Shown here: in pieces, positions 22,101 through 42,129 of the stretch
How the letters are laid out: every line of letters begins with the position of its first letter
How positions within the stretch are numbered: position 1 is the first letter of the stretch
DNA from: Apostichopus japonicus
Taxonomy: Eukaryota; Echinodermata; Holothuroidea; Aspidochirotida; Stichopodidae
NCBI RefSeq assembly: GCF_037975245.1
Contig: NC_092571.1
Location: 12,717,917-12,781,916 of the forward strand
DNA: 64,000 nucleotides
Reading direction: 5' to 3'
Position numbers and translations under genes: made by a program
Notes under the pieces: generated by a model
The model's database searches: none
What the model was told of the DNA's origin: nothing
What the model saw: the letters and a program-made list of their open reading frames with translations, nothing else

Positions 22101-25100
22101 CACAAGAACAACAAAGGAGAAGGTGAGAGCAACACTGAACACTTATTTATCTTGAAATATCAAACCCAAATGCACTCAATCGTAAAATTTCGGATACAGT
22201 TGAAATTGGCAACTTTAATATTCTGACTTACTTCCTAGCTGCCAACAAAAAAAATAAATCTCCGATGAAATGTCATGGGAAATATTGCCCATACTTTGTT
22301 AAAAAAAAAAAGAAGAATATAAAGGGAAGAAAAACAAGGCTCAACTGTCAAATGATGTAAGATTTTGACCTGACAGCATATTGTTTTCAAAGACCTTTCT
22401 GTGGGTCATAATCACACCCCAACCCTTAATGATAAACATCACTGAGTGAAAAACCTTGGAATGCCACACAAGTTGGGAGACCATTAGCAAAATATAACTT
22501 TATTAAACAATAAAGGAAAAATCAAGAAACTTTGAACATCTATAATTCAATTTCAACTGTATCCAGATGCAGGAAATTTTTACATTGCAAAAAAAGAACA
22601 TTAAAAAAAAAATATATTGCTAGAGAATTTACATTTATTAGGTACATCAATCTCCAGCAGAGCCCCTTAAGTCACATACAGTTTGATTCATGTTAAAATC
22701 GTATTTTGAGGAATACATGCAAATTTTTTTTTAAATATGAGTTTGAACATGAGGGCATGATCATAGATTTTTCAGTTTCATCCTTGTACCATATTCAGGG
22801 GCATAACTAGACATTTGTTTTTAGGGGACCCCAATGGTTTTCAAGAGCAGGCAGAAACTATTTTCTTAAAATAGGTGGAGGGGGGGGGGGAGGAAGGCAA
22901 GCAAACATATGTGGGGACGGGGAGAGGGAAAATTCAATTATCCTTTTTAACTTCAAATGACGTTTTTGTTTTATATATATTTTTTTCTTTTAACTTGCTT
23001 CTTTATTGGCAAAAGGCTCAAAATGCCATTGAGAGAGGTAAGTTTATTATCTACCTGTGTACTGCTGTTACTTCTTCTCTGGTGTTCAATAAACCTCTCG
23101 ACTGTACTTGTCTTGTTCTGTATTGATGTCATCCCTTCTGTTATCTTCTGACATGGCATCTGGATCGTTTTTAAAAACATTCCAGAAAAAGTATTAAAAC
23201 AGATCAAATATGGATCATACATCTAAACCCCCTCCCCGACCTTTCCCATTTGTGAACCTGTATCCATTGTGTGGAATGTTCCTTTGTACATACCTTCTCC
23301 TCAGCTAGTTGGGCATCTTTGCTTTATAAGGAGTTTTCCATGCATGGGATGTTGCTTTTCTAAAAGTTGATCCTGTTAGTTGATAATGTAACTGTACCTT
23401 GGTCTCTTTGATGTGGCGGCTGTTATGTATTTTCCAAGCTTCCATAGCATTTGTTATAATAGCCTCCATTTTATATGTAGTAACGTTGTTATTATCCACG
23501 TAGTTGCCTCTGGTAAGTTTCAGATACTTTTGAGGAAATATTAAGAAAGGGAAAGAAGCAATAAAGTATCCATTCCTAAAACAATGGTTATATTTCTTAT
23601 TACTTCCAGCTCCCAAATTTTCACAACAAAAATTATATTAAGTTTCTTTTGCAGTGTTCTTTTTGACATTATTGGGTTGTTGCTTGTTTTAGAAATCAAT
23701 CATGTGTATATACACATGGAATGTGAAAGGAAATCAGACCTAAGTTGTGATTTAAATGTATGTAGAAAATATGTAATCGTGAACACACCTTGACTGCTGG
23801 ATATGTTTGTATTCAAAATTAATTTAAATCTCATAAAAGTTCTTCAACTTCTTCAAAATGCACCCTTTCTCTCCACTATTCTGCGTACAGGTGCACCCAA
23901 TACTCTTTATACAGGGGCACTCGGGTATTAAATTTTAGTTGAGTAGCACATATAAAAAAGATGAGTCCTTCTCAAATGCATTCTATGGTCCAGTTTTCTA
24001 TCACCCCCTAAATGGGTCACTTGCCTGCGCAAATGGTTTTAGCATAGAGTAATGACTAATCAAGCACACAGCCTTTATTTTTTCATAGTGGCTGCCTTTA
24101 ATGAAACAAAATCAAGCAGTGGTAATATTCTAAAACTATAAGTGGAAGAAAATGTGATCTAGTCATCTGAAATTAACCATTTATTTTGTTGTTGTTATCA
24201 TTCCTTCCGACAGAGTTGCAAAGCGATGCCACCCCAGTTGCTCTCGATGCCATTACTACGATGTTGGAGATAGCTGAAATAGATATCGATATCGCCATGG
24301 ATGGTAGCACCAAGATACCCCTAAAGGCCCTCTCGAAGGTGTTTTCTCTAAACATTCCAGTTTCGTCGATTATCACTGGAGTCCGCGAGAAGAAACTCAG
24401 TCTCGACTGTGGGAGGCCCCTCTGCATGGACGCGGTGGAGGGAAACATTGCCAGTAACCGGGATAGCGTCGTCATGACGACTCTAGAGGAGAACGACGAG
24501 ACTCTGGAAGAGTTCTCGTTTCTATGGCAACAGGAGAGCGACTCTCTGCAGGAGTTGGTAGCACCGAACCGGGTGCACCACCCCGAGCACGCGTTCGTCG
24601 GTCTGGAGAACATTGCGGAACACAAGTCGATCGCTGGCTCCGCCGACGACCTCTCTTCATCGACAGACTCCTCCGATGAAGAGGATGGATACCTTCCCGG
24701 TCCATTCACCCTGGGATTGAGGTCCAAGGTCAACGGATGCCTCGAGGAGAGCGAAGACAGCGATTACGATATTGAAAGCGACAGCACAAATTCGGGTACT
24801 CTAAAAAGGCGAAAGACTTCGCAGGACAAAAAGAAATTAGAACAGACAAAAGTGAGTGGACATGTGATCAAAAGAGTTAAAGACAAAGAGCAGCCTTTCG
24901 AAACCAAGGTGGACATCTTTGCGGGCGATAGAAGCCGACTGTCCATGGCTATGGAAGAGCTCGGGGCCGATCTCCTCGGTATCATCGGTGACATTAACCC
25001 GAGGGCCAGCAGCATGGAACCTGTCCATGAGAAGGGATGCCACTGTGACTTCTGCCTCGTAGAGAGTTGCGGGTGCAGCGACGGCCAGTCGATATCAAAC

Positions 25101-25916
25101 TTTAACCGAGTCGACGGCGAGAGCAAAGATTTGAAAAGAGTCGGCGATGGCAGAGCAGAGATTTTCTCCGACGAAAATAGAAACTGGAGCAAAATTTACG
25201 AGAGCAAAGAAACGGTGATAGGTGGTGATGCCTCCGAGGATAAGTCGGACGGAATGGTCATCGGCGGTAGTACGGATACGTTGCAGAGCGAAGACGACAA
25301 ACCAAACCCCAGCGATGTTCATTTTTTGACCGAGAGCGGGGCACTCGAAGAGCCCGAACAATACGATCTTCCAGAACCCCAGACGAATACGGAAGATGTG
25401 GCCAGTATGCAAATGGAAGAAGAGGCAGAAGATGTCGAGTTTGACAGGCGTAAGGAAATTTCGGAAAAATACGGCGTGACTCTCCGACAGAGATCGAGGA
25501 CTAAGAAGGCGTCGATATTTACCATGAGATTTAAGTCGAGGGACGGATTAGACTCCCGTACCCTATCCGGGAATCTGGACGGGTTCGGTTCCGACGGCCG
25601 TTCAAATGATTTACGGGATTCGCTCAACGGTTCGCTGCATCATTCGCAGACTTCGTTGGGTAGAGAGGTGAAGAGAATGTCCTCTTTGGAGGCAGGGGGT
25701 CGCAGGGGTAAAGGTGACTCCAAGTACGGCACCCTCAGGCGTTGGAAGAGGTTCACGACCGGGGCATTCCTTTCTAAGTCGATGCCAGACATAACTGCCA
25801 GGGCGAGTAGCAAAGATTGGGTAGAATCAGAACACGACAAGGAGTTTGAGAACGGTGGTGTGGCAGCTAGTCATCAGGAGAAAAAGTCAAAAGTCTTCTT
25901 CTTTTGGAAAATTTGA
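1109..25916 (+). CDS. PLCH: Phospholipase C-eta-like, 5'-partial, 13 coding exons
   Basis: Phosphoinositide-specific phospholipase C cleaves PIP2 to IP3 and diacylglycerol at membranes. The exons are 1109-1185, 3109-3201, 4220-4333, 5527-5604, 14844-15051, 15929-16108, 18056-18163, 18304-18431, 19363-19447, 20426-20572, 21100-21179, 21825-22122 and 24214-25916. All are bounded by AG/GT and phases match at every junction, giving 1098 codons to TGA at 25914-25916. Visible parts are the X-box end (LPSPEALKGKILIK), an acidic linker (EGGEVSEEDSADE), the Y box (LSDLVKYT, RVYPSAYRIDSSNY, GNCGYVLKP), a C2 domain (IDPYVEVEVIGLP, DEDPIGRDYIG) and a long unique tail. The linker and C2 motifs favour the eta class over delta or beta. 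PH, EF-hands and the catalytic X core are upstream of position 1. Family assignment is firm; the tail does not resemble anything I recognise. Confidence 0.92.
1500..2400 (+). repeat. 37-bp minisatellite with 214-bp higher-order period
   Basis: About two dozen copies of a 37-bp unit (aataatcatgta-yrtggtac-tagagttatg-aacacac). A block starting at 1847 recurs at 2061 with the same variants (ggcactagag, then ggaacttgag, then a shortened acacaatcatg unit), so the array has a 214-bp higher-order repeat. It lies in the first intron visible in the PLC-eta gene. Confidence 0.95.
2689..3048 (-). mobile_element. TTAA-flanked MITE, copy 1
   Basis: A 360-bp element with terminal inverted repeats AGGGTGTGAAAACTCG and (reverse complement of the right end) AGGCATTGAAGACTTG, flanked by TTAA at 2685-2688 and 3049-3052. 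A homologous copy lies in the opposite orientation at 36107-36446. TTAA target duplications are characteristic of the piggyBac superfamily; no transposase is encoded. Confidence 0.85.
3109..3201 (+). CDS. PLCH: PLC-eta exon: acidic start of X-Y linker
   Basis: 31 codons, phase 0 on both sides, acceptor ttccag and donor gtcagt. The peptide TQKLPLDHDNELEGG leads into a run of Glu/Asp (GEVSEEDSADELEEDFK). The X-Y linker of PLCs is autoinhibitory, and a negatively charged stretch here is typical. The EEGEVSxEDSADE pattern is what I associate with the eta class. Confidence 0.9.
4220..4333 (+). CDS. PLCH: PLC-eta exon: X-Y linker
   Basis: 38 codons, phase 0/0, acceptor tttctag and donor gtaata. 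It encodes a lysine-rich linker piece beginning LEKSGASKFENLVVAQWALK. Linker sequence is poorly conserved, so the support is splice sites, frame and position rather than homology. It could be alternatively included because skipping keeps frame. Confidence 0.7.
5527..5604 (+). CDS. PLCH: PLC-eta exon: basic linker segment
   Basis: 26 codons, phase 0/0, donor gtacgt. The peptide starts ARESSKRHRRSSSGLSG, an Arg/Ser-rich stretch with several potential basophilic kinase sites. Its acceptor (tataggc context) is weak, so the exon is less certain than its neighbours. The 9.2-kb intron that follows (5605-14843) holds the fold-back pair, a SINE-like repeat and several tandem repeats listed separately. 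Confidence 0.65.
6838..7036. mobile_element. Fold-back MITE, copy 1
   Basis: The ends are CAGTTGGGACAATTT and AAATTGTCTCAACTG. The interior is also self-complementary (aaagcactggtattgacagta against tactgacaatacgagtgctc), so the whole 199 bp can fold as an imperfect hairpin. A second copy follows at 7124. No coding capacity; target duplication not resolved. Confidence 0.7.
7124..7323. mobile_element. Fold-back MITE, copy 2
   Basis: 200 bp, same family and orientation as 6838-7036, with ends CAGTTTGGACAAT and ATTGTCCCAACTG and the same internal complementary arms (caaagcactagtactgaca / tgccagtacaagcttgtgcttt). It is separated from copy 1 by 87 bp. Confidence 0.7.
9415..9915 (+). repeat. Degenerate short tandem repeat (gactgttttcccatgt-like)
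   Basis: Many variants of a roughly 20-bp motif built on ctgttttcccatgtga recur with irregular spacing, especially 9415-9460, 9590-9680 and 9735-9870. It looks like an old minisatellite. It falls in the large PLC-eta intron. Confidence 0.6.
10440..10857 (-). mobile_element. tRNA-related SINE, minus strand
   Basis: Read on the minus strand, the first 60 bases from 10857 resemble a tRNA head: an A-box-like GGTCAAGTGGTTAAAAGCA and a B-box-like GGTTCGAGTCTC. A body follows containing GTGTCCTTGGGCAAGGCACT and CACCCAGGTGTATAAATGG, a combination typical of widespread invertebrate SINEs. The 3' boundary near 10440 is approximate. Confidence 0.7.
13313..13715 (+). repeat. 144-bp tandem repeat, about three copies, with DR1 motif
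   Basis: Three units spaced exactly 144 bp (aagaagtcta at 13361, 13505; aagaagcctt at 13649). Each early unit contains AGGTCAAAGGTCA (13383-13395 and 13527-13539), a perfect DR1 nuclear-receptor half-site pair. As 144 is a multiple of three, an open frame runs through the array, but it is not a gene. Confidence 0.9.
14029..14530 (+). repeat. About 140-bp tandem repeat, nearly four copies
   Basis: The motif ggtgtcagcagtggg begins units at 14029, 14169, 14309 and 14445, each followed by taaatgaaagagtactg and tggtatttgtacaaaacaa. It ends just before the exon at 14844. No coding potential. Confidence 0.9.
14844..15051 (+). CDS. PLCH: PLC-eta exon: Ser-rich linker and start of Y box
   Basis: 69 codons plus one base, ending in phase 1. 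It opens with a Ser/Glu cluster (SRSESSESESAEDG) followed by RRNSSAP, a plausible PKA or 14-3-3-type site. It ends in LSKQLSDLVKYTRSV, the conserved entry to the Y domain. The acceptor at 14843 or the tandem AG three bases on (14846) would change only one Gln, a possible NAGNAG-type choice. Confidence 0.88.
15929..16108 (+). CDS. PLCH: PLC-eta exon: Y box core
   Basis: Phase 1 in and phase 1 out, acceptor tttcag and donor gtaagt. It encodes the Y-domain core with RVYPSAYRIDSSNY and NPQP-like YSPQPMWNCGCQL. The Arg/Tyr and Ser/Asn positions here contribute to the TIM-barrel and PIP2 pocket in PLCs of known structure. Confidence 0.93.
16592..16770 (+). repeat. Interspersed repeat shared with 33.1 kb, copy 1
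   Basis: The segment around ttagactttgtagtccagtc-attttgattgatgg and the following tggtcatttctcaaa matches 33121-33290 (ttagactcaatagtccagtc). Same orientation on the plus strand, but different genes and opposite transcription. Ends and class unknown. Confidence 0.65.
17599..17816. mobile_element. Inverted pair of tRNA-related SINE segments
   Basis: An almost perfect 218-bp palindrome: arm ggttggggtgtccgcaaa at 17599 is mirrored by tgcggacaccccaacc ending at 17816. The centre near 17707 is ttacatatatcattg. Each arm contains cccgggttcgaa, a B-box-like sequence. The minus-strand arm, extended to about 17830, also has an A-box-like TGGCCTGGTGGTTGGGG. It is probably two head-to-head SINE copies or an inverted duplication. 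Confidence 0.75.
18056..18163 (+). CDS. PLCH: PLC-eta exon: end of Y box
   Basis: 108 bp, phase 1/1. It encodes VALNYQTEGRVMQLARAKF and GNCGYVLKPQVM, the closing strands of the catalytic barrel. The preceding intron (16109-18055) contains an interspersed repeat at about 16.6 kb and the inverted SINE-like pair at 17.6-17.8 kb. Confidence 0.94.
18304..18431 (+). CDS. PLCH: PLC-eta exon: Y-C2 junction and first C2 strands
   Basis: Phase 1 to 0, acceptor cttcaacag and donor gtaagt. It encodes KKLLTIRIISGQQLPKPPQS, the usual opening strand of the PLC C2 domain, then GERGE. The intron after it (18432-19362) shows no recognised element. Confidence 0.93.
19363..19447 (+). CDS. PLCH: PLC-eta exon: C2 domain
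   Basis: 85 bp, phase 0 to 1. It encodes IIDPYVEVEVIGLPIDC and the DN of the next loop. The Asp of DPYVEVE sits where C2 domains bind calcium. The next intron carries a G-rich purine tract at about 19.68-19.74 kb. Confidence 0.93.
19680..19735 (+). repeat. G-rich purine tract
   Basis: Runs of gggggaggggga with more than four GGG blocks, able in principle to form a G-quadruplex on the coding strand of the PLC-eta intron. Similar shorter tracts occur at about 8.22, 8.69, 11.03, 13.94, 14.62, 16.26, 17.53, 19.92, 20.63 and 22.88 kb. Confidence 0.8.
20426..20572 (+). CDS. PLCH: PLC-eta exon: C2 domain
   Basis: Phase 1/1. It encodes GFNPNWNQTV, then HMPEIALIRFAVWDEDPIGR and DYIGQ. The DEDPIGRDYIG loop supplies further acidic C2 ligands. 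It matches the PLC-delta/eta C2 pattern closely. Confidence 0.95.
21100..21179 (+). CDS. PLCH: PLC-eta exon: end of C2
   Basis: 80 bp, phase 1 to 0. It encodes GYRHIHLEGLDHATLYIHV, the last C2 strand, and then leaves the conserved catalytic module. Everything downstream is the variable tail. Confidence 0.93.
21825..22122 (+). CDS. PLCH: PLC-eta exon: proximal tail
   Basis: 99 codons plus one base, phase 0 to 1. The peptide is basic at first (LHRLTRARSSNKHDYARTK), then has a Ser/Thr run before an acidic end. The acceptor is tacag at 21824; a second AG in cacag at 21834-21835 would break frame. The following intron (22123-24213) is AT-rich with no recognised element. Confidence 0.85.
24214..25916 (+). 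CDS. PLCH: PLC-eta terminal exon: long acidic tail
   Basis: One 1.7-kb uninterrupted exon of 566 complete codons plus stop, markedly richer in GC than the introns around it. The protein is acidic, Ser-rich and largely disordered-looking. It contains a Cys cluster (CHCDFCLVESCGCS, C807-C819 of the visible protein) and ends in basic/aromatic VFFFWKI. The first ~80 residues (ATPVALDAITTMLEIAEID onward) look more ordered. Long divergent tails are normal for PLC-eta. I do not recognise any domain in it. Confidence 0.88.
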
Positions 25917-30351: not shown

Positions 30352-30453
30352 TTAGTTATTCCGGCTCTGGGCTGTGTTACTGTAATCCGAGTCGGCTATG
30401 TTCAGCATTAAGCTTCCCGCGTTCAGGTAAATACGGTTCTGGGACTGGGCGAT
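30352..30453 (-). CDS. PHB2: PHB2 exon 8: C-terminus
   Basis: 33 codons and TAA, phase 0, acceptor cgacag. It encodes [20 protein letters not shown] followed by a divergent polar end. A (TTC)n and a (TCTG)n microsatellite begin right after the stop (about 30270-30345 on the plus strand). Confidence 0.94.
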   Translation of the reverse strand: MAQSQNRIYLNAGSLMLNIADSDYSNTAQSRNN

Positions 30454-33400
30454 CTGTCGAGCAAAAACATTGATTTAACATCCAATGCATTGGATAGCCT
30501 CTTTGTACAAAGCCCGACTGGATCGTGATTTCACAAAGCAAGTGGGGTGTGTATTCAACCAGCTTTCATACGTCAGTTTGGACTTCTTTATAGTTCGGGA
30601 GGCATTCTACCCAGCTATGGATGGTAAACTCACTGAGATTTAGACGGCTAGTGCCCGACCCCACAACAACTTCCCGGATGCTGCATTTCACTGGTGCTAA
30701 TACCATTTGCCTTTACCTACCCTAGCACTGATCTATAACATCTCCACCATTACAAATATATAAACTCTCAAGTTTGAAAATTGCTTCACAAATTGATGTG
30801 CCATTTCTGGTAAAAATTGCATTTAATCTTGCATTTAATCAGTGAGTTAACTACTCATGTAGATGGCACCCCCTTTCCATCCTTCTATCGTCGTTGTCAA
30901 TTGAATTTCAGTATTATGGCACAATATTTCAATGCAATGACCCTCCCACTGTTATCAATTGAACTGAATAAACTAGTGCATCTCACCCTGGCCCTCACCC
31001 TCCCATCATCAACTGAATTTAGTAACCAAGTATGGCCCTCCAATTATCATCAATTAAATAAACATTGAAATAAACATTGAACAAAATAAACATTGAAATA
31101 CATGGCACACTGCACCCCCCCCCCCCATCTTAATCCATTCAATAACCAAATGAATGGCATCCTGGCCCTCCAATTTTTATCAATTGGATGAAATGACCAT
31201 GTACATGGCACCCTGCTTCCAACCCCCACCCCCCCCTTCAATGGAAAATTAAATAACCAACTACATGGCACCCCTGGCCCTCCAATTATTATGAATTAAA
31301 TGAAATAGTAACTAAATAAATGGCACCCTGCCTCCACCCATCCCTCCCCCCACCCCCGCCCAGTATCATCAATGGACTTTAATAGCCAACTTAGTCATCC
31401 TTTTATGATTCCCAACCAATTTGTCAAAAAGATAAATTTCTCGTCAGCCCTCGCCTTATCAAGTCATCTTACGAAGATAAAGTAGGGTTCTATCTCCACC
31501 TCTTCTCACTGAACAGACTTGGCTAAACTAACTTAGAAGGACATCACCATTGAAATTACTTTCCTATCCTTACTATCCTTATTAGTTTAAAGACATACAA
31601 AATACGTACCGTCCTGGCAATGTTTTGTGACGCCCTGATCTTCCTCAGCTTCAGGTAACCGGGATTCTTCGTGATAGCTTCACCGAGGTAAGAAAATGAT
31701 GTCAAGGCAAATTTGACGACAGACGACATGTAACGGTGACTGTGGTGTACATCATGTACGTAAGTGCTGGTATTGTAACCAAACAGTCATATTACACTCG
31801 CATTAAACATCTATTATACACTTAGACATTTTTTGTTCATGCTCCTGTTATTACTCACAGTACGATGCATTTCTTGGTACAACATATACAGTAGGCAGGT
31901 AAAATGCTCTGAAATATTAATTAACACTGTAATGGGATAGTAAGAGTTTAAAGAATGGAAACCTACAAAGCAAAACTTTCTGAAGAAGTTATTTTTAAAC
32001 CTCTAGGCTTCTAATCCAACACCTCGGTACACAGATGCCTCAGATTACTAAAGATGGTTATCAGTCAACAGTGTCACTATGACCAGACAACCTTCACACA
32101 CCACCCTTTACCTCCCCTCTTCCTCCCTCAACTCCCACCCCCATGCCTAATGTACCCAACTGTACCACCGCTAGGACGGTGCTTGCTGGACTTCACGCAA
32201 GTTTCATCCACAAGGTGGGGGGGTGTTTTACTGTCAATCCGGCCTTACAATGTATGTCCACCGAATGCCAAGGGTTCTCCAACTCTCGAGCGGGTAACGC
32301 TCAGAGAGAGAGAGAGAACCCTGGGCAGGACATCCATCAAGATTACAGACTGAACCCGCGGTGAATGATTTCAGGACAGACACCGCTGCCTGATGGGAAT
32401 TATGGTCGGTTGTCCTTCACGATCAAGAGACACAGGGTTGTCAAGCTTTCGATAATCATCACAGGCAATAAAAAATACTAAGATAGGTGTAGTACCGAGG
32501 AGGGGCAGGTTAATAGAAGCAATTCTGACTTTCTCAATCGATCTGGTTGCGAGGGAATTACTGATCTTTTTTTTTTTTGCTCTGGGTACCTTTTAAACCA
32601 TTAAAGCAGTGGGATTGTGTATATATGTAATATATTGCCAAATCCAATGACCAAGAAGTAAAAAAGAGCAATTTACATGTGTACAAAATGTACTGCAAAG
32701 CTGGTTTCACAAGTTCCAGTAACTTCCCCACAATATAAATATTATATCATAAGTTACCTTCTTCACTGAACTGTTTTGACTAACTAATAAAACACTGGAT
32801 CTACAAATGAATCAATCCATAACAGATGAGTATAGGCCTAGACTTGTTACATGTTACTACCCTCACTAAGCTGTTTAGACTAACTAACTAACTTACTTAT
32901 AAACACCAAGTCTACATCTAGGCCTTGATGGTAATGTTAATCCATTTTGTTTTTAATAAATTCTAACAACTTGACACAGACACGTTCTTTTAACTCCATA
33001 TATACAAGAGAGCACCCTTGCATTACATTCAACACCATCTTCCCACGACAAAATTTGTAACATATCGTTAAACGTGTCATTTGGGGTCATGCAAGTCTTC
33101 ATGTTTTCATGCAGTTTTAGTGTTGCAGCTGAGGAACTGACCTTATTGTCTGTGCATTAGACTCAATAGTCCAGTCATTTTAGTTGATGAACCTCACTCC
33201 GTTCAAAAGGGTCATTTCTCAAAGTTATAAAAGAGTTTATAGAAATACCAGCCAGGCTGCTAACAGTGGTTTTTACTGGTCTTACAGACATATCAAACTT
33301 ACAGTCATCCTTACAGGGTGAGACAGAAGAGGAACAATACATTGCTTGAACAGCACAAACATGCAAGGGCGGGAAAGTCTCAAAGTAAAGCAGCACATTG

Positions 33401-36400
33401 AATGAGATTTTTCAAACAGTTACAAAACTGAACTCGTACAAACCTGTTCGAGGTAACAAAACATTATCTAGTCAGTTTGTTCCCTGAGAAATCTTCCATT
33501 TTAAAATTTGCCTTACAAACTCTTCAAAATTTGCCTATTAAACATGCTAATTAACCGCACAAGGCTGAGAAAAGGATATCATGTAAGCTGCCTCTGCCTC
33601 TCCTTCGGCCTGGACGATCTTCTGCTGTCTTTGTTGCACGGCTTTCTCCACTAAGAACTGCGCCCTCTGTGCCTCTTGCTGAGCGACCTGCTTGGCTTCC
33701 ACAGCGGCGGTGTATTCCTTACCTAGACAATGTCGGAAGGGAAAAACGAGAGGGGGATAAGGAGGGGTAGATAGATGTACAGATGGTGGCAAGGAGATGT
33801 AACATAACTGGCAAAACATCATAACGATGTAGACAAAATGGTGCTTAACAGGCTTGGGGTAATCGTTATCAGTAATCGTAATCGATTACAATCGATTACA
33901 TTTTTTGAAGTAATCGTAATCGTAATCGATTACTTTTGTGAAAATTACAAATAATCGTAATCGTAATCGATTACAAGGGCAAAGTAATCGTAATCATATT
34001 ACATTTATGATTACAGTGAAATTTGAATGAGAAGGGCAAAATTAGTAGAAATTGATTAAAACTAAATCTTACTTTTGGCTTTTAGTGTGACCAAAGAAGT
34101 GTTCCTGCTTCTAGAATTCTCTAGCACAATAAACTTATACTAAGAAGTACTGGGGATTTGATCGCCATATTCAAGGATTTTTTATCACCTGAATTATTCT
34201 GTTCAATGCTGCCTCTCAACGTTCACAATCCTTTTGCATACACAACTGGTTGACATTAGTTGACATGGTGTGCTGATTATAGAAAATTATTTTATTAGTT
34301 CTATATTAAACACTTAACAAACAATAACAGTCAGGCTGACAAAATACACCCTTTAAATTAGTATTAAATTTAAGTAAGTAAATTTGATAAATAATTCCAT
34401 TTGCCATGTTCAGTGGGCCACAAGGCTCAGGTGTTTGTTATAGCATACTGTAATGGCAGTAATGCTTGTACAGAAATACTGCAAAACGCATCGGCAGCTA
34501 GCATAAAAATTCTTGTGAAAACATCACGGACGGGACATTTCAATGTTCATTAGTAAAATGTTAATTGTACTCATCTCATGTTGTGGGGAAAAAAGTTATT
34601 CAGAAATTTGCCTACATTCCATTGTCCAATAACCCATCCAACTTTGCACCATTTACACCTCTTTAATTAATGTAATTAACCTTGTTGCTGAAAAATCACT
34701 GCAAATTAAGTATTTTGGTGGATCAGAATTTGCTTTACCAGAGTTGACCACTTTTTGATGACAATAATTTACTTTTACTTTGGCCTTCCATGTCCCATGT
34801 ACTGTGGAATGCCCCATTTCAAAGCTGTTTAGTTTTATTTCGGTGTTATAATGTAAAAGAGTTTTAGTTTTGCTGCTATGCAGAAATTATTAGTTTACAA
34901 AATATGGTGTTGCATGAAAATCTTCATTTGTTTTACTTAAGTATTTGTCTGTTTACTCTTTGTCTGTTAAATTGTATTTTTTACTGGACTTATGGGTTAC
35001 ACATCTTAAACGTGTTAAGGCATAAATGTGTAATGCCTGGTAGGAATTGTAGATATACTTCCACAATTTTGTCCGTATATACTGTAAATGCCCTTCCTTT
35101 GCCCTACTTCATTGCCCTATTTCCTGGCAGAGAGGTATATTAAACAGATATGCAGAGGATTGTGCAACTAACCACAATGTAATCGTGATTGTAATCACGA
35201 TTACATTACAATGTAATCGTAATCGATTACTTCAACTTTAGGCTGTAATCGTAATCATACATTCTCAAGTAATCGTAATCGTAATCGATTACATTCAGAT
35301 GTAATCGCCCCAAGCCTGGTGCTTAATAATATTGCAGTAGAACGTCATCTTTTTTATTTTACATACGACAACAGCGTGCCTTCTGCTAGGTAATTCAACT
35401 CCATTTTTGTAACACAGTGAAAGGCTAAAGTGGCAACTACTGTACTCTTGGCATCAAAATTCATGAGGTTTCTTGGACCTTAAAATTCCATTTAAGAACA
35501 CTGTCTTCGATCAGAGCACTCTTTCATGTGGTCTAATGCTTCCCCTTCTGAAGGTAAAGAAATCCCAGAAAGTCAGTGAGTATGGGGGGGGGGAACAGGA
35601 GGAGGGTATAACCCCCAATGGCTGTAACTTGAACTTGAACTTGTATTTGAACTTGTGTAATACACAGACTTCTATGCCTGCTTAAAGTCTTCCATTCTAC
35701 GACCTAATTATGTTGTACCCCCAAATATAAACAAGCTGACACATGAATAAATATATGTGACTCTGTCTGGAGGTTTTACATGAATGTTTACATCCTCCAA
35801 GTAAGACTGTGACATCATTTCTCCAGTCAGAGTGCACAGCTGTATCATCAACTCACCAAAACTAAGCTCGGTGATGGAGACGTCGTCCAGGATGATGCCA
35901 AAGTCGTTAGCTCTTTCTGTTAATTGCTTGCGGATGAGAACACTGACCTTAAGAAACGAGAAAAGAGGAGGAAAGTATGACAGTGATGCCCATTAGGGAT
36001 ACACTACGCACTCTACATGGAAATATGAATATTCAGTAGCAAAGTCTGTTCTCCACCCTCTTGGTAATGACAAAGGAAGGTCTGATTGAAGAAACTACAG
36101 TATTAAAGGCATTGAAGACTCGCCCAAAATAGTGAACTTTCTGTTGCTTGCAAGGGAAGATTTTCTCTTGTCGCTACAAAATGCAGACAGTAATGAAACG
36201 TGATACCTTGTTATCTTTAGCTGGAACTGAGATGTTCATCGCTGTATGGTTTGTACACTGTGCTGTGGGTATTGACCGCAGCTGTAAGTACTCACTGTAC
36301 ACTAGTGTCTAATTACTGACGGTAGCAAGCTGTGTGTGTATTTTCTGGGATCGATGGTGGTGTCTAACACTTCTGATACGCCTCATTCGACACTAGGTCA

Positions 36401-39400
36401 GATTACCGACATTAGACATATCTTTTTGCGCGAGTCTTCACACCCTTTAATGTTCAAGATTATCAATGCAGCATTCAAGATATGAAGTGAAAAAAACCCA
36501 ACTTCCCAATGCGGGATTCAAGATATGAAGTGAACCCCCCCCCCCAAACTTCCCAATGCGGGATTCAAGATCGGAGAGAACAACCCCAAAATACCAAACG
36601 TGGAATCCAATATGGGAAGTAAGTGAACCCTAGATTCTTTGTAAATCAACTGGGCATACAGTACCTGTTGCCTCTGTGTGATAAGTTGTGAAGCATTAAA
36701 CTTGGCGACTACCCCCTTTAGAACCTGAAAAGGAACAAGAAAATAAAGAGCCTGATTTAGTTATGAAGCAACATTAAAATTATTCCTCAAGAGGTGTGAG
36801 TTACATTTACAAACTTGGCTGAAATCGTACGGATTGAAAAAAAAAAAAAAAAAATTTATTTTAAAAACTACCCTACAGATGGGGTTTCTCCAACTGGTGT
36901 GATGTCTTTACGCTACTGGTCTTTAGCTATTGTCATGTATGGTCACAAAACTCTAAACACAGGGTTAAAGGTCAGTGACCCATCATATAATACACCATAC
37001 TATATCCCGACAATATATATTCCTGTTCCTCGGTAAAACACTTTGTTCCTTGTAGCTTTATCGCCACTTTACAAATGACAAGTTTATCTCATAAGACACT
37101 CTTGTTGGTTCACCAAAACTAATGATAACTGAATCTATTTCAAAAGGTAGAAAAAACACCAATCGGTTTAACAAATAGGATGAATATAGATAGACATGTT
37201 ATGCGTGATTGTAAGTTGCGATGCAAAATATCAAGTTATGACTGCATTTTCTAAACAGAAGGCTGGCCGAAGATTCAGATTTTGAGTCACATTGACGGGC
37301 GTCGGGTGATATTAGCAGAAGGGCCTTCACCGGCACCCCAACCATGACTAAATATTTTACCTGCTTTAAAAGTGATGCAGCAAATCATCATCACATATAA
37401 GAGATTTTGGATGAAAAAAAACAAGTGAACTGAGACTCTTACCTCATTGCATATAGAGGGCAGCACTCTGTCATCATAATCTTGTCCCAGCTGACGACAG
37501 ATCTGCGGCAGTTGATCGGCAATGGGCCTGAACAAGACTCGGAGGCTGATGTTGACCATTTGTAAATCTGTGCAGTGGGAAAGATTTAAATAGTTACTTA
37601 CGGCGCACCACAAGACATTGTAATAAGAACTATAACGGTACTGTGTAACATTCTGTACAGAGTCAAAAATGACTTTGATGCAGCGGTGTGTGTTTATGAT
37701 TTCCGTTGACATGCCAAAAGCTTGTTCAGTAGCAATTGGGGAGCTCTGATCAATTTAAATTTAAAACTAACTAACTTACTATAAACACCAAGTCTACAGG
37801 ACATCAAAAACAAGTCCACATCTAAGCCTTGGTGTTCCACACAATAAAGCTGATCTGCATCTTGAGATAAAATCACGATTGTGTGATATTTATTCATCCC
37901 TGTTGAGCAGAAATTTTTAGAGCTTCTACTGCTTTTTCTTTCTGACATGGTATGAGCTGAGTTTCACCTATAATTGCCTAATACTTATTGATCAATATCA
38001 GAGGCCTTCAAACTGTCTAACGACAATTACCATGGAATCGTCACGGATAATCGTCACGTTGTACAGCAGTACTTGCAAACAAATCTGTGTGCAAATGGAT
38101 TACAAAGAACCTTGGCACAAAACCAACTACTGAACGACTGATCCGCTCTCAACCCCAGTCCCCTTGCATCGGGACTGTGAGTGTGTGATCATCGTCAGGG
38201 TGTGCATCACCATTCCCCTTAAAAGAGAACAGATACTACACATGATTTACACATGATACTGCATGAATTACCGAATTGCAGAGAGCATTTCCATGTCAAC
38301 AGGTTGAGAACACCAAACATGTGACTGAGCATGGACCTTTTCTGTCAAATCATCACAAAAATTTTACCTTTGCTACCGGTTGGTGAAGAGATTCGTCTGG
38401 GTTTGGCACGGATGTCATATATAATCGGATATTGGAACCATGGTATCCTGAAGTGTAGGCCTTCCCTGTAGATGGTGTTCTGTAGACCCCCTATACGACT
38501 GAAAATGATTGCTCGCTGACCACCTTGCACTGGAAAAGAAAGCATGAGAAATACACTTTTGTCAAAATTCATGAAACCAAACCAAGCAGTGTTTAGGAAG
38601 TTCTTCATCATTCAGATTCCACTTTGGAATTCACTATTTAAACAGACTTAATTAGTAAACGATACTATTTAGATAATTTCTTTTCCAACAATGAAGGCTT
38701 TTAAGGGTTTTTTAGCAGTTGGTTAGGCATCATCTGGACTATGCTGTGCAGCCATGGAACCCATATTTTGCTAATGATGAGGAAGTACATATGCCGGGCC
38801 CTATAGCAGGGGTGGGCAACTTTTTTGAATGATTGGGCCAGACATAAGTGAAAAATTGACTGGACCAGACCTAACCAACGACCTGCTGTTGATTTCAAAC
38901 CTTTGTTTCTGAGGACTTTCAAGCAATAGGTGTATGTATTCACAAAAAACATAATTTCATTACAGTACAGTTGATATTTAACTGGGCATAGCTGTCGAAT
39001 ACCCCTCGTTATTGAAACTTTACCAAAATAGGTGCTACGGGCTATGAGGTTAAAGTTAGGGTTAGGGATAGGGTTAGGGAACTTCTGACTTCGTAGCCAA
39101 TAAATACTTCAACCTCCATTCCAACACTTCTGACTTCGTAGCCCGTTGGGTTTACTTAAAAACAAGGTTAGGGATTAGGGTTAGGGGGTTAGGAAACTTC
39201 TGACTTCGTAGCCTGTTGGTTCGTTGCCACTAAATACTTCACAACCCCCATTTCACAACCTCTGACCTCATAGCCCATTGGTTCGTGGCTACTAAATACT
39301 TCAACTCCCAATCCACCACTTCTGACTATGCAGCCAGTTGGGTGTCGCCCCAGATCCCCATGAATGTCACCCCACATCTTCCTGCTTTACTTTTCTTTAC

Positions 39401-42129
39401 AGAATGACTGCATAGTCCGTTTGTCGGCAACATAAACCAAAACGGACCACATACCCCGTTGGATATCGCCTGTTTTACACTTCATTGTACATTAGAAAAA
39501 AGGAAAAAAACATTTTTAAGTCCAATAACTTTAACAATTCTATAATAGCGCCATCTACTCAAGCACATTATAAGACTGCGTTGGCCGTTGTTCGTCTCTG
39601 TCAAAACCACAATATCGGATCCAGCGGGGTATTCTGCAGCTACTCCTTAAACTGATGGGGATAATAGGCCTACCTGACCGCATCATTGGTGCCAATAAAT
39701 TCTAAGCAGCTCAACCCTTTTTAATTACGGTCGCCATGGTCGCATTGGCGACCACAATTCTCGGCTGGCGATGAGAATTTCTGGAAAAATTAATGCTAGT
39801 CGCCAGACCTATAATACTGTGGCGATCAGTTTTTGCAACAGAAAATTTCACCATGACGAATTAAAATTGTCACGAAACTGTTCAAAATTTTAAAATGACA
39901 AGTTAGAGTAGCAATATTATGTGATAAAATGAAAAGAGATTTAATCCGTCTTACAATCTTTAAAAAGTTTAACTTACAAAACTGTCGATATTATGAAACA
40001 AACTACGTTCGGCAAAGCCCCGTTTCAAGACTGCCTAACAATGAACAGCGTGCACTATACGTACATCAGTTTACAACTGCAGTGTTTAACCTTGGTAGGC
40101 TACATGTGCATCAAATTTTACCAGGTACCTTGTCAAGCAAGTTGCAACCCCCTGTCTAACACCTGTTTGTTAACATTTTTGGCACGTTTCCAAAGAACTT
40201 TTCATGGAGTAAACTATTTTGGCTCCACTCTAGAATTAATTAGGTCAGTCAGTAAAGGATCGGTAAAGTTATGCGAAATATTATCTTACACGTTTAAGAA
40301 AAGTAGGTAAATATACCCGTAACATGAAGGTAAGTAAAACACACCTCAAGCCAACCGACTCCTCCGCATGAACAAAACAATCTTTTCCCCATGATACACG
40401 AGGCACAGTCTATACCATACAGACATAGCACGATATCATGGCCCCGATAGCTACGGTATGGTCATATTTATAAAAGTAAACCTTGCAATTCCATATTTTA
40501 GGCCACTTAACTAAATGCTAAATATTGTTTCCATGTCCTTGTAGAGAACGTCAACTTCGCAAAATACAATTTATAGTTGTGTTTTTGTTGTTACGTGAGA
40601 TCCGTAACCTACGAAGTGGTTAGGCTATTTACTATACACTTAACTGTGGTAGGATAAAAATTTTTCCTTTTTTGGTGGAAATTCTAGAAATACTTTCTTT
40701 TTCCCCCGCTTGACACCAGATGTGGTCTTATGGTTAATTCATAAATGGGTGTACTAGAGCCTTGTTTACATGACATTTTTTGCATTTAGCACGATATGCC
40801 AGTTTCGCGTGAATTTTTCGAAAGTATTTTGCTCGATCTTTCGTAAAATTTGAAAGGTGTACCAACTTACTTTTCCTACACAATTGGTAATTTCTTTACT
40901 GATTTTCAGAGTTTTGTTCTCTATACAGTGAATGTTGTAAAGGACGGGTTTTAACAAAGTTCAAAAGTCAGTAAATGAAGTTGATAAACTTGATTTCTTT
41001 TCAACTTTCTTAACCATGGAATGCTAAAATAACATTTACACATAAAACGGAGAAAGGATAATTGCATTTTTTTCCCACATTAATTTCAAATTTCTTTCAC
41101 AAGAAGTCATCGTCATTTGTTCAATCCTAAAAAAATATCGTCTTGAAAAAAAATTATCGCGATAATAATAATTTTCGATACATCTCCCAACCCTATTATC
41201 CTATACGTCTTTATACGACTCTGTGCGTGTACACATGTACAGTCTAGTGCTACTCGATGTTGGGCCTAGGCCTACTGTTTTTTGTACTAATATTTAGCAT
41301 ATCAAAGTGGCAATCACATTTTCATTCTGGGCGACCAGAATTTGGGAAAAATAAAGATCTAGTCGCCACAGGATTTTCCTCCTGGCGACCTCATTCACTG
41401 AGGAATTAAAAAGGGTTGAAGCAGCTTGCTCGTTTTTTTGTGATGATGTAATATAGATTGATCTTTTCTTTTCTTGAGACATCTCATGGACCGCCAAACA
41501 ATCACTGGCGGGCCGTATAGGTTGCCCACCCCCAGCTCTTTAGGGTCCTAGATGGGGATAATAGGCCTACCTGACAGCATCATTGGTGCCAATAAATTCT
41601 AAGCAGCTTGCTCGTTTTTTTGTGATGATATAATATAGATTACTTTTTTTCATTTCTTGAGACATCTCACGGACAGCCAAACAATCACTGGCGGGCCATA
41701 TAGGTTGCCCACCCCAGCTCTTTAGGGTCCTAGAACAATAGAAGGCTTGATCATTGATGGTGACTGGACTCTGGAGTGTCCCTACTGATCCCTTGTGTTT
41801 TGAACTAAACTATACTTATAACCCAACGTGTAACATTTCGCTTCGTTAACCCAAGTAAAGCCTTTACCTTTATGACCTAGGCTAGCCGATGCCTATATAA
41901 GTTTAAAGTTAACCTAGGCCTAAGTTAGGCTAGCCCAACTTAGGCCTAGCCTATAATGCCATGGCAAAAGTTATGCACCGACTGAACCTAGATGAAGCCT
42001 ACCTGTGTAAAGAGACTCTTTAACACCATACGCAAGTGCTCCAGCACCTATAAGGAGTCTTATTCCTGTGGATAAGCCAGCTGGTCCCTTTCCCATTCGC
42101 CCCAAAAGATCTCTTGCTTGTTGAGCCAT
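30352..42129 (-). CDS. PHB2: Prohibitin-2, complete, 8 exons
   Basis: Prohibitin-2 forms ring complexes with prohibitin-1 in the mitochondrial inner membrane and stabilises membrane proteins and cristae. Exons in reading order are 42003-42129, 38368-38529, 37443-37567, 36665-36724, 35857-35947, 33580-33722, 31610-31687 and 30352-30453. They total 888 bp, 295 residues, close to the roughly 299 of vertebrates. Visible parts are an N-terminal hydrophobic anchor ([12 protein letters not shown], residues 26-37), the SPFH domain ([20 protein letters not shown]), a coiled coil ([19 protein letters not shown]) and a C-terminal [18 protein letters not shown]. Seven introns; six are GT-AG and one is AT-AC. 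The start ATG (42127-42129) has A at -3 and G at +4. The introns are enlarged by at least four mobile elements. Confidence 0.97.
30930..31390 (+). repeat. Degenerate repeat with C-runs in PHB2 intron 7
   Basis: The motifs tacatggcaccctg, ggccctccaattattatcaatt and aataacca recur several times at about 60-bp spacing, interrupted by C8-C12 runs. It appears to be an old tandem array. Confidence 0.6.
31610..31687 (-). CDS. PHB2: PHB2 exon 7, starts after AT-AC intron
   Basis: 78 bp, 26 codons, phase 0/0: [20 protein letters not shown] then QNIART, donor gtacgt. The exon is preceded by TTTTCTTAC with no AG nearby, so the intron must end in AC. Confidence 0.94.
31688..33579 (-). other. PHB2: U12-type AT-AC intron of PHB2
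   Basis: On the minus strand the intron begins ATATCCTTTT (33579 down to 33570), a full match to the U12 donor consensus, and ends TTTTCTTAC at 31688. A branch-site match TGCCTTGAC lies at 31701-31709 (consensus TTCCTTRAY, one clear mismatch). Its adenine at 31702 is 14 nt from the acceptor end, the spacing expected for U12 introns. Splicing here restores AEAAYM-LGEAI, in register with prohibitin-2. Confidence 0.88.
33121..33290 (+). repeat. Interspersed repeat shared with 16.6 kb, copy 2
   Basis: Homologous to 16592-16770 through tagtccagtcatttt, gggtcatttctcaaag and gctaacagtggtttt. It lies inside the AT-AC intron of prohibitin-2. Confidence 0.65.
33580..33722 (-). CDS. PHB2: PHB2 exon 6: coiled coil, ends at AT-AC intron
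   Basis: 143 bp, phase 1 to 0. It encodes [20 protein letters not shown] and [15 protein letters not shown]. No GT donor exists at the family exon end; the exon instead stops at ATG followed by ATATCCTTTT. The Tyr before Met is Lys in the homologues I recall. Confidence 0.93.
33849..35318. mobile_element. hAT-like element with TAATCG subterminal repeats
   Basis: 1470 bp. The 11-bp terminal inverted repeat CAGGCTTGGGG / CCCCAAGCCTG is flanked by a perfect 8-bp target duplication GTGCTTAA (33841-33848 and 35319-35326). Both ends carry many copies of gtaatcgtaatcgattac, a self-complementary subterminal repeat. No transposase frame; non-autonomous. It lies in PHB2 intron 5. Confidence 0.93.
35857..35947 (-). 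CDS. PHB2: PHB2 exon 5: SPFH domain to helix
   Basis: 91 bp, phase 0 to 1. It encodes [20 protein letters not shown] and [10 protein letters not shown], conserved across prohibitins. The intron that follows carries a complete hAT-like element (33849-35318). Confidence 0.96.
36107..36446 (+). mobile_element. TTAA-flanked MITE, copy 2
   Basis: A 340-bp copy of the element at 2689-3048, inverted relative to it. Its ends are AGGCATTGAAGACTCG and CGAGTCTTCACACCCT, between TTAA at 36103-36106 and 36447-36450. It sits in a prohibitin-2 intron. Long stretches align between copies, with scattered substitutions and small indels. Confidence 0.87.
36455..36610 (+). repeat. Short tandem repeat (ttcaagatatgaagtgaa)
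   Basis: Three to four imperfect copies of caatgcgggattcaagata followed by tgaagtgaa and C- or A-rich filler, immediately downstream of the second TTAA MITE. Confidence 0.6.
36665..36724 (-). CDS. PHB2: PHB2 exon 4: SPFH domain
   Basis: A 60-bp exon of exactly 20 codons, [20 protein letters not shown], phase 0/0. This short exon is too small to notice as an open frame and was placed from homology and splice sites (ttttcag / gtactg). Confidence 0.96.
37443..37567 (-). CDS. PHB2: PHB2 exon 3: SPFH domain
   Basis: 125 bp, phase 1 to 0, donor gtaaga. It encodes [20 protein letters not shown] and [15 protein letters not shown]. The conserved Y-[DE]-[DE]-RVLPSI motif is intact. Confidence 0.97.
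38368..38529 (-). CDS. PHB2: PHB2 exon 2: start of SPFH domain
   Basis: 162 bp, phase 1/1. It encodes [17 protein letters not shown], then [19 protein letters not shown] and [10 protein letters not shown], the best conserved block of prohibitin-2. Intron 1 upstream of it is 3.5 kb and consists largely of nested hAT-like elements. Confidence 0.97.
39050..39420 (+). repeat. Repeat with interstitial TTAGGG motifs
   Basis: gttagggttagggatagggt at about 39055-39080 and a second cluster at about 39169-39195, embedded in repeats of aacttctgacttcgtagcc. Too short and imperfect for a telomere; part of the outer hAT-like element. Confidence 0.65.
39712..41418. mobile_element. Inner hAT-like element nested in the outer one
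   Basis: 1707 bp. The 15-bp inverted repeat CAACCCTTTTTAATT / AATTAAAAAGGGTTG is flanked by a perfect 8-bp duplication AAGCAGCT (39704-39711 and 41419-41426). GTCGCC motifs repeat near both ends. The neighbouring copy of the host sequence (41551-41735) has a single AAGCAGCT and no insert, that is, the empty site. No transposase recognised. Confidence 0.92.
41551..41735 (+). repeat. Tandem duplicate of outer-element right arm (empty site)
   Basis: Reproduces 39654-39711 joined directly to 41427-41550: gatggggataataggcc through aaattctaagcagcttgctc to gttgcccaccccag and ctctttagggtccta. It lacks the inner element. It shows the duplication came before, or excluded, the inner insertion. Confidence 0.88.
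42003..42129 (-). CDS. PHB2: PHB2 exon 1: start and membrane anchor
   Basis: 42 codons plus one base, from ATG to donor gtaggc. It encodes [15 protein letters not shown] and the hydrophobic [18 protein letters not shown] anchor that targets the protein to the inner membrane. Start choice is supported by alignment with the family N-terminus. Confidence 0.95.

Follow-up and report, generated by a model that had tools for sequence, protein, structure and literature searches.

A probable U12-type AT-AC intron in the prohibitin-2 gene of the sea cucumber Apostichopus japonicus

Introduction

A stretch of 64,000 nucleotides of the Apostichopus japonicus genome, hereafter the window, carries a prohibitin-2 (PHB2) gene in which one intron begins with AT and ends with AC. 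Is this intron of the minor-spliceosome (U12) type, and is it the counterpart of the minor intron known from PHB2 of other animals? A first-pass annotation had placed an AT-AC minor-spliceosome intron at 31688-33579, naming a U12 intron in Drosophila Phb2 and suggesting a link between minor splicing and mitochondrial prohibitin.

The statement on Drosophila was correct. CG15081/PHB2 is among the 19 fly U12 introns of Lin et al. (2010; PMC2831892, Table 2), where it is AT-AC and the third of five introns; its human counterpart is also U12, and the 16 human counterparts of fly U12 introns share the subtype. The link to prohibitin is likewise already in print for the fly: in U6atac mutants no gene with a U12 intron was reduced more strongly than PHB2, and this reduction was proposed as the primary cause of downstream effects (Pessa et al., 2010; PMC2952598). 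In further work, snRNA inhibition is reported to lead to alternative splicing around the PHB2 minor intron (PMC8034651), this intron to be retained in fly 65K mutants (PMC11304329), and Phb2 protein to be lower in fly miso mutants (PMC12084885); a study of mouse stem cells (PMC3695530) has made use of PHB2 as a U12 gene. Fly strains whose minor spliceosome is disrupted still splice the PHB2 intron in part (PMC7644725), and minor-spliceosome dependence therefore need not be absolute. Relatively high numbers of minor introns are noted for molluscs and the brachiopod Lingula (PMC10639083). Among the titles and abstract beginnings found by searching a partial coverage of the literature, none concerned PHB2 U12 introns in another invertebrate phylum.

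Results

The PHB2 gene and its seven introns

PHB2 is complete on the minus strand of the window (coding region 30352..42129), with eight coding exons (exons 1-4, 42129-42003, 38529-38368, 37567-37443 and 36724-36665; exons 5-8, 35947-35857, 33722-33580, 31687-31610 and 30453-30352) that join into a single open frame of 888 nt and 295 aa. The product carries a Band_7/SPFH domain and matches Prohibitin-2 of PDB 8rrh over residues 1-289 (E 4.2e-138). Introns 1-5 and 7 are GT-AG, as the annotation had stated for six of the seven, and intron 6 is AT-AC. Searching the 671.6-Mb genome with the protein gave 11 matches, seven in PHB2 exons (covering seven of the eight, exon 4 being absent among the matches listed) and four in the paralogue PHB1 on contig 23; no further PHB2 copy was present among the matches listed, such as an intronless one that would record the junction. 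On the plus strand, a 576-aa open frame at 24186-25916 matched nothing in Pfam up to E 0.001 and probably represents an exon of an adjacent gene.

Splice signals of intron 6

Intron 6 (31688..33579, minus strand, exactly where it had been placed) is 1892 nt long and interrupts the frame in phase 0 after residue 236. It is flanked by GCTTACATG and CTCGGTGAAGCT and separates exon 6 (33580..33722, minus strand), which ends at 33580, from exon 7 (31610..31687, minus strand), which starts at 31687. The joined exons align without a gap to 8rrh Prohibitin-2 across the junction, with AAYM-LGEA here and AAKM-LGEA there.

U12-type introns have the 5' splice site consensus RTATCCTTT and a branch consensus close to TTCCTTRAC about 10-20 nt from the intron end. 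Measured against these consensus sequences, the candidate U12-type donor ATATCCTTTT (33570..33579, minus strand) has 0/9 mismatches and is thus complete, as claimed for it, compared with 3 to 6 mismatches in the other six PHB2 introns. The putative branch site TGCCTTGAC (31701..31709, minus strand) differs from the consensus at 1/9 positions, as against 3 to 5 in the other six; its A at 31702 lies 14 nt before the intron end, in agreement with the near-consensus branch site described earlier, and the single departure counts against a U12 reading. The intron closes with the 3' splice site TTTTCTTAC (31688..31696, minus strand). Intron 6 alone among the seven fits the U12 pattern.

Part of intron 6, at about 32920-33301 (intron positions 279-660), belongs to a dispersed repeat. 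The genome holds at least 40 further matches to it, 70-77% identical, with 40 of 961 candidates scored.

Motif frequency and motif placement

Neither U12 motif is enriched as such in the window (100 shuffles each), which counts against the U12 reading: RTATCCTTT occurs three times versus a shuffle mean of 1.89, a count reached in 27/100 shuffles, and CCTTRAC-N6-16-YAC occurs three times versus a mean of 4.51, reached in 79/100. The persuasive evidence is the placement of the signals at both exon edges set by homology, not their frequency. The exact donor is found at 3 of 127,982 positions. Of 14,506 AC/AG dinucleotides, 44 are preceded by a branch motif with at most one mismatch; the chance of both signals falling on the two homology-defined edges is about 7e-8 if they are independent and before allowing for the choice of edge.

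Minor-spliceosome components and snRNA pairing

Each of the U11, U12, U4atac and U6atac snRNAs that the annotation had wanted confirmed has at least one genome match at full model length and above the Rfam cut-off, these counts being lower bounds from scoring only the best 40-49 candidates. Matches to the CCDC84/CENATAC family lie at three places in the genome, one of which runs across a TAA that is perhaps an exon edge, and the PDCD7 model and the U11-48K zinc finger have one match each. In 14 control genomes these searches gave no match apart from the U11-48K zinc finger, which matched in one (Sulfolobus). A-type (AT-AN) minor introns are reported to need CENATAC/CCDC84 in human cells (PMC8280824); the likeness to the present case lies in the AT-AC termini and in the family match in this genome.

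In fixed registers, the U11 start of this genome can form six Watson-Crick pairs and one wobble with the donor of intron 6, U6atac can form nine contiguous pairs with the same donor, and U12 can form eight pairs and one wobble round a bulged A of the branch site, with one internal mismatch. Ranking windows along the PHB2 gene by free energy in any register was also tried and dropped as a means of picking out the U11 and U12 sites. Of 12,019 windows, 2046 pair equally well or better for U11, 907 for U12 and 34 for U6atac, figures that count against the reading. Since this ranking did not make the sites of U11 and U12 stand out, the analysis relied on fixed registers and on where the motifs lie.

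The paralogue PHB1

A U12 intron common to both prohibitin genes was considered and rejected. The matching stretch of PHB1 is read in a single open piece, and RTATCCTTT is absent from the 14,201 bases of the PHB1 coding strand that were examined. The intron is therefore present in PHB2 and not in PHB1, and either PHB2 acquired it once the two genes had separated or PHB1 has lost it. Stray animal PHB2 loci for a comparison of intron position were also looked for, and no relative was found in the viral contigs or prokaryote genomes scanned.

Discussion

Intron 6 of this PHB2 gene is very probably of the U12 type, AT-AC subtype, and most likely the orthologue of the U12 intron of fly and human PHB2. 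The U12 reading is supported by the splice sites, the reading frame, the protein homology, and matches to all four snRNAs of the minor spliceosome and to models of three of its proteins. From these data we infer that the intron is spliced, that its splicing depends on the minor spliceosome, and that it goes back to an intron present in the ancestor that fly and human share. Drosophila CG15081/l(2)03709 (Phb2) and human PHB2 have a U12 intron in the same gene with the same AT-AC termini (PMC2831892). The fly intron is the third of five (PMC2831892) and the present one the sixth of seven, and the likeness established here is one of gene and subtype.

Could the major spliceosome join the two exons through nearby GT-AG or GC-AG sites, the U12-like motifs being coincidental? 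We scanned 34 donors in 33670-33381 against 11 acceptors in 31840-31621, scoring splice sites with position weights. As 56 of the resulting 374 pairs are in frame and free of stops, the earlier statement that no in-frame join is open to conventional splicing was too strong and is not literally true. Even so, the best sum is -0.31 (-2.26 for the best GT-AG pair), far below the 6.15 to 15.14 of the six GT-AG introns of PHB2. The best GT-AG pair (33560 with 31678) does keep the frame and replaces LGEA by ISFSQPS, and none of the best 25 of the 56 in-frame products retains the AAYM-LGEA join that matches 8rrh. Together with the very small chance of coincidental placement calculated above (if independent, before edge choice), this makes a normal PHB2 mRNA by conventional splicing unlikely, and the explanation as a whole highly improbable. 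Excision of the AT-AC intron itself by the major spliceosome, as in sodium-channel introns, has a precedent in that such introns exist and have G at +5 (PMC2831892). The donor of intron 6 has C at that position, carries the whole U12 consensus and is accompanied by a U12-like branch site, and we regard this explanation as scarcely credible.

It is also conceivable that intron 6 is a genuine U12 intron gained independently of that of fly and human. The comparison with fly and human covered gene and subtype, which leaves some room for a separate gain. Against it, both species have an intron of the same AT-AC subtype in the same gene, and new U12 introns look rare, since for only one of the 19 U12 introns of the fly is a conversion from U2 to U12 type reported (PMC2831892). 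We accordingly consider an independent gain very doubtful, and a shared origin with the fly and human introns the better account.

On the U12 reading, U11 and then U6atac would pair with ATATCCTTTT, U12 would pair round the bulged branch A of TGCCTTGAC, and the minor spliceosome would join ...AAYM to LGEA... in phase 0. Retention of intron 6 would let ten intron codons be translated before a stop, and PHB2 output should therefore depend on minor splicing. Because PHB2 of both fly and human is documented to carry an intron of this kind, the present one is an ordinary and well-preserved instance of a minor intron that was already known. It adds one more animal genome that would keep the PHB2 AT-AC minor intron alongside its snRNAs, it agrees with the published suggestion of prohibitin as a main victim of failing minor splicing in the fly (PMC2952598), and it leaves existing views unchanged.

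A more far-reaching idea is that selection holds the AT-AC intron in PHB2 across bilaterians, with slow minor splicing metering prohibitin, and that a strong major-type donor at the very start of exon 6 (AG/GTAAGG) competes with it, the balance of the two spliceosomes setting how much mRNA lacks exons 6 and 7; we think this improbable. At 33717-33724 (minus strand), TCTAG/GTAAGG spans the start of exon 6, GTAAGG opening the exon right after the AG of intron 5. This would be a strong major-type donor, as at recursive splice sites, and its use would skip exon 6.

The codon just before the intron had also been called notable. It encodes Tyr (TAC, residue 235, 33583-33585, minus strand), where 8rrh Prohibitin-2 has Lys; a role for it in the splicing signal was considered, and neither anything in its favour nor any evidence linking this Tyr to splicing was found. 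The exon letters CTTAC at this codon are the same as the final CTTAC of intron 6, a repetition that is probably due to chance.
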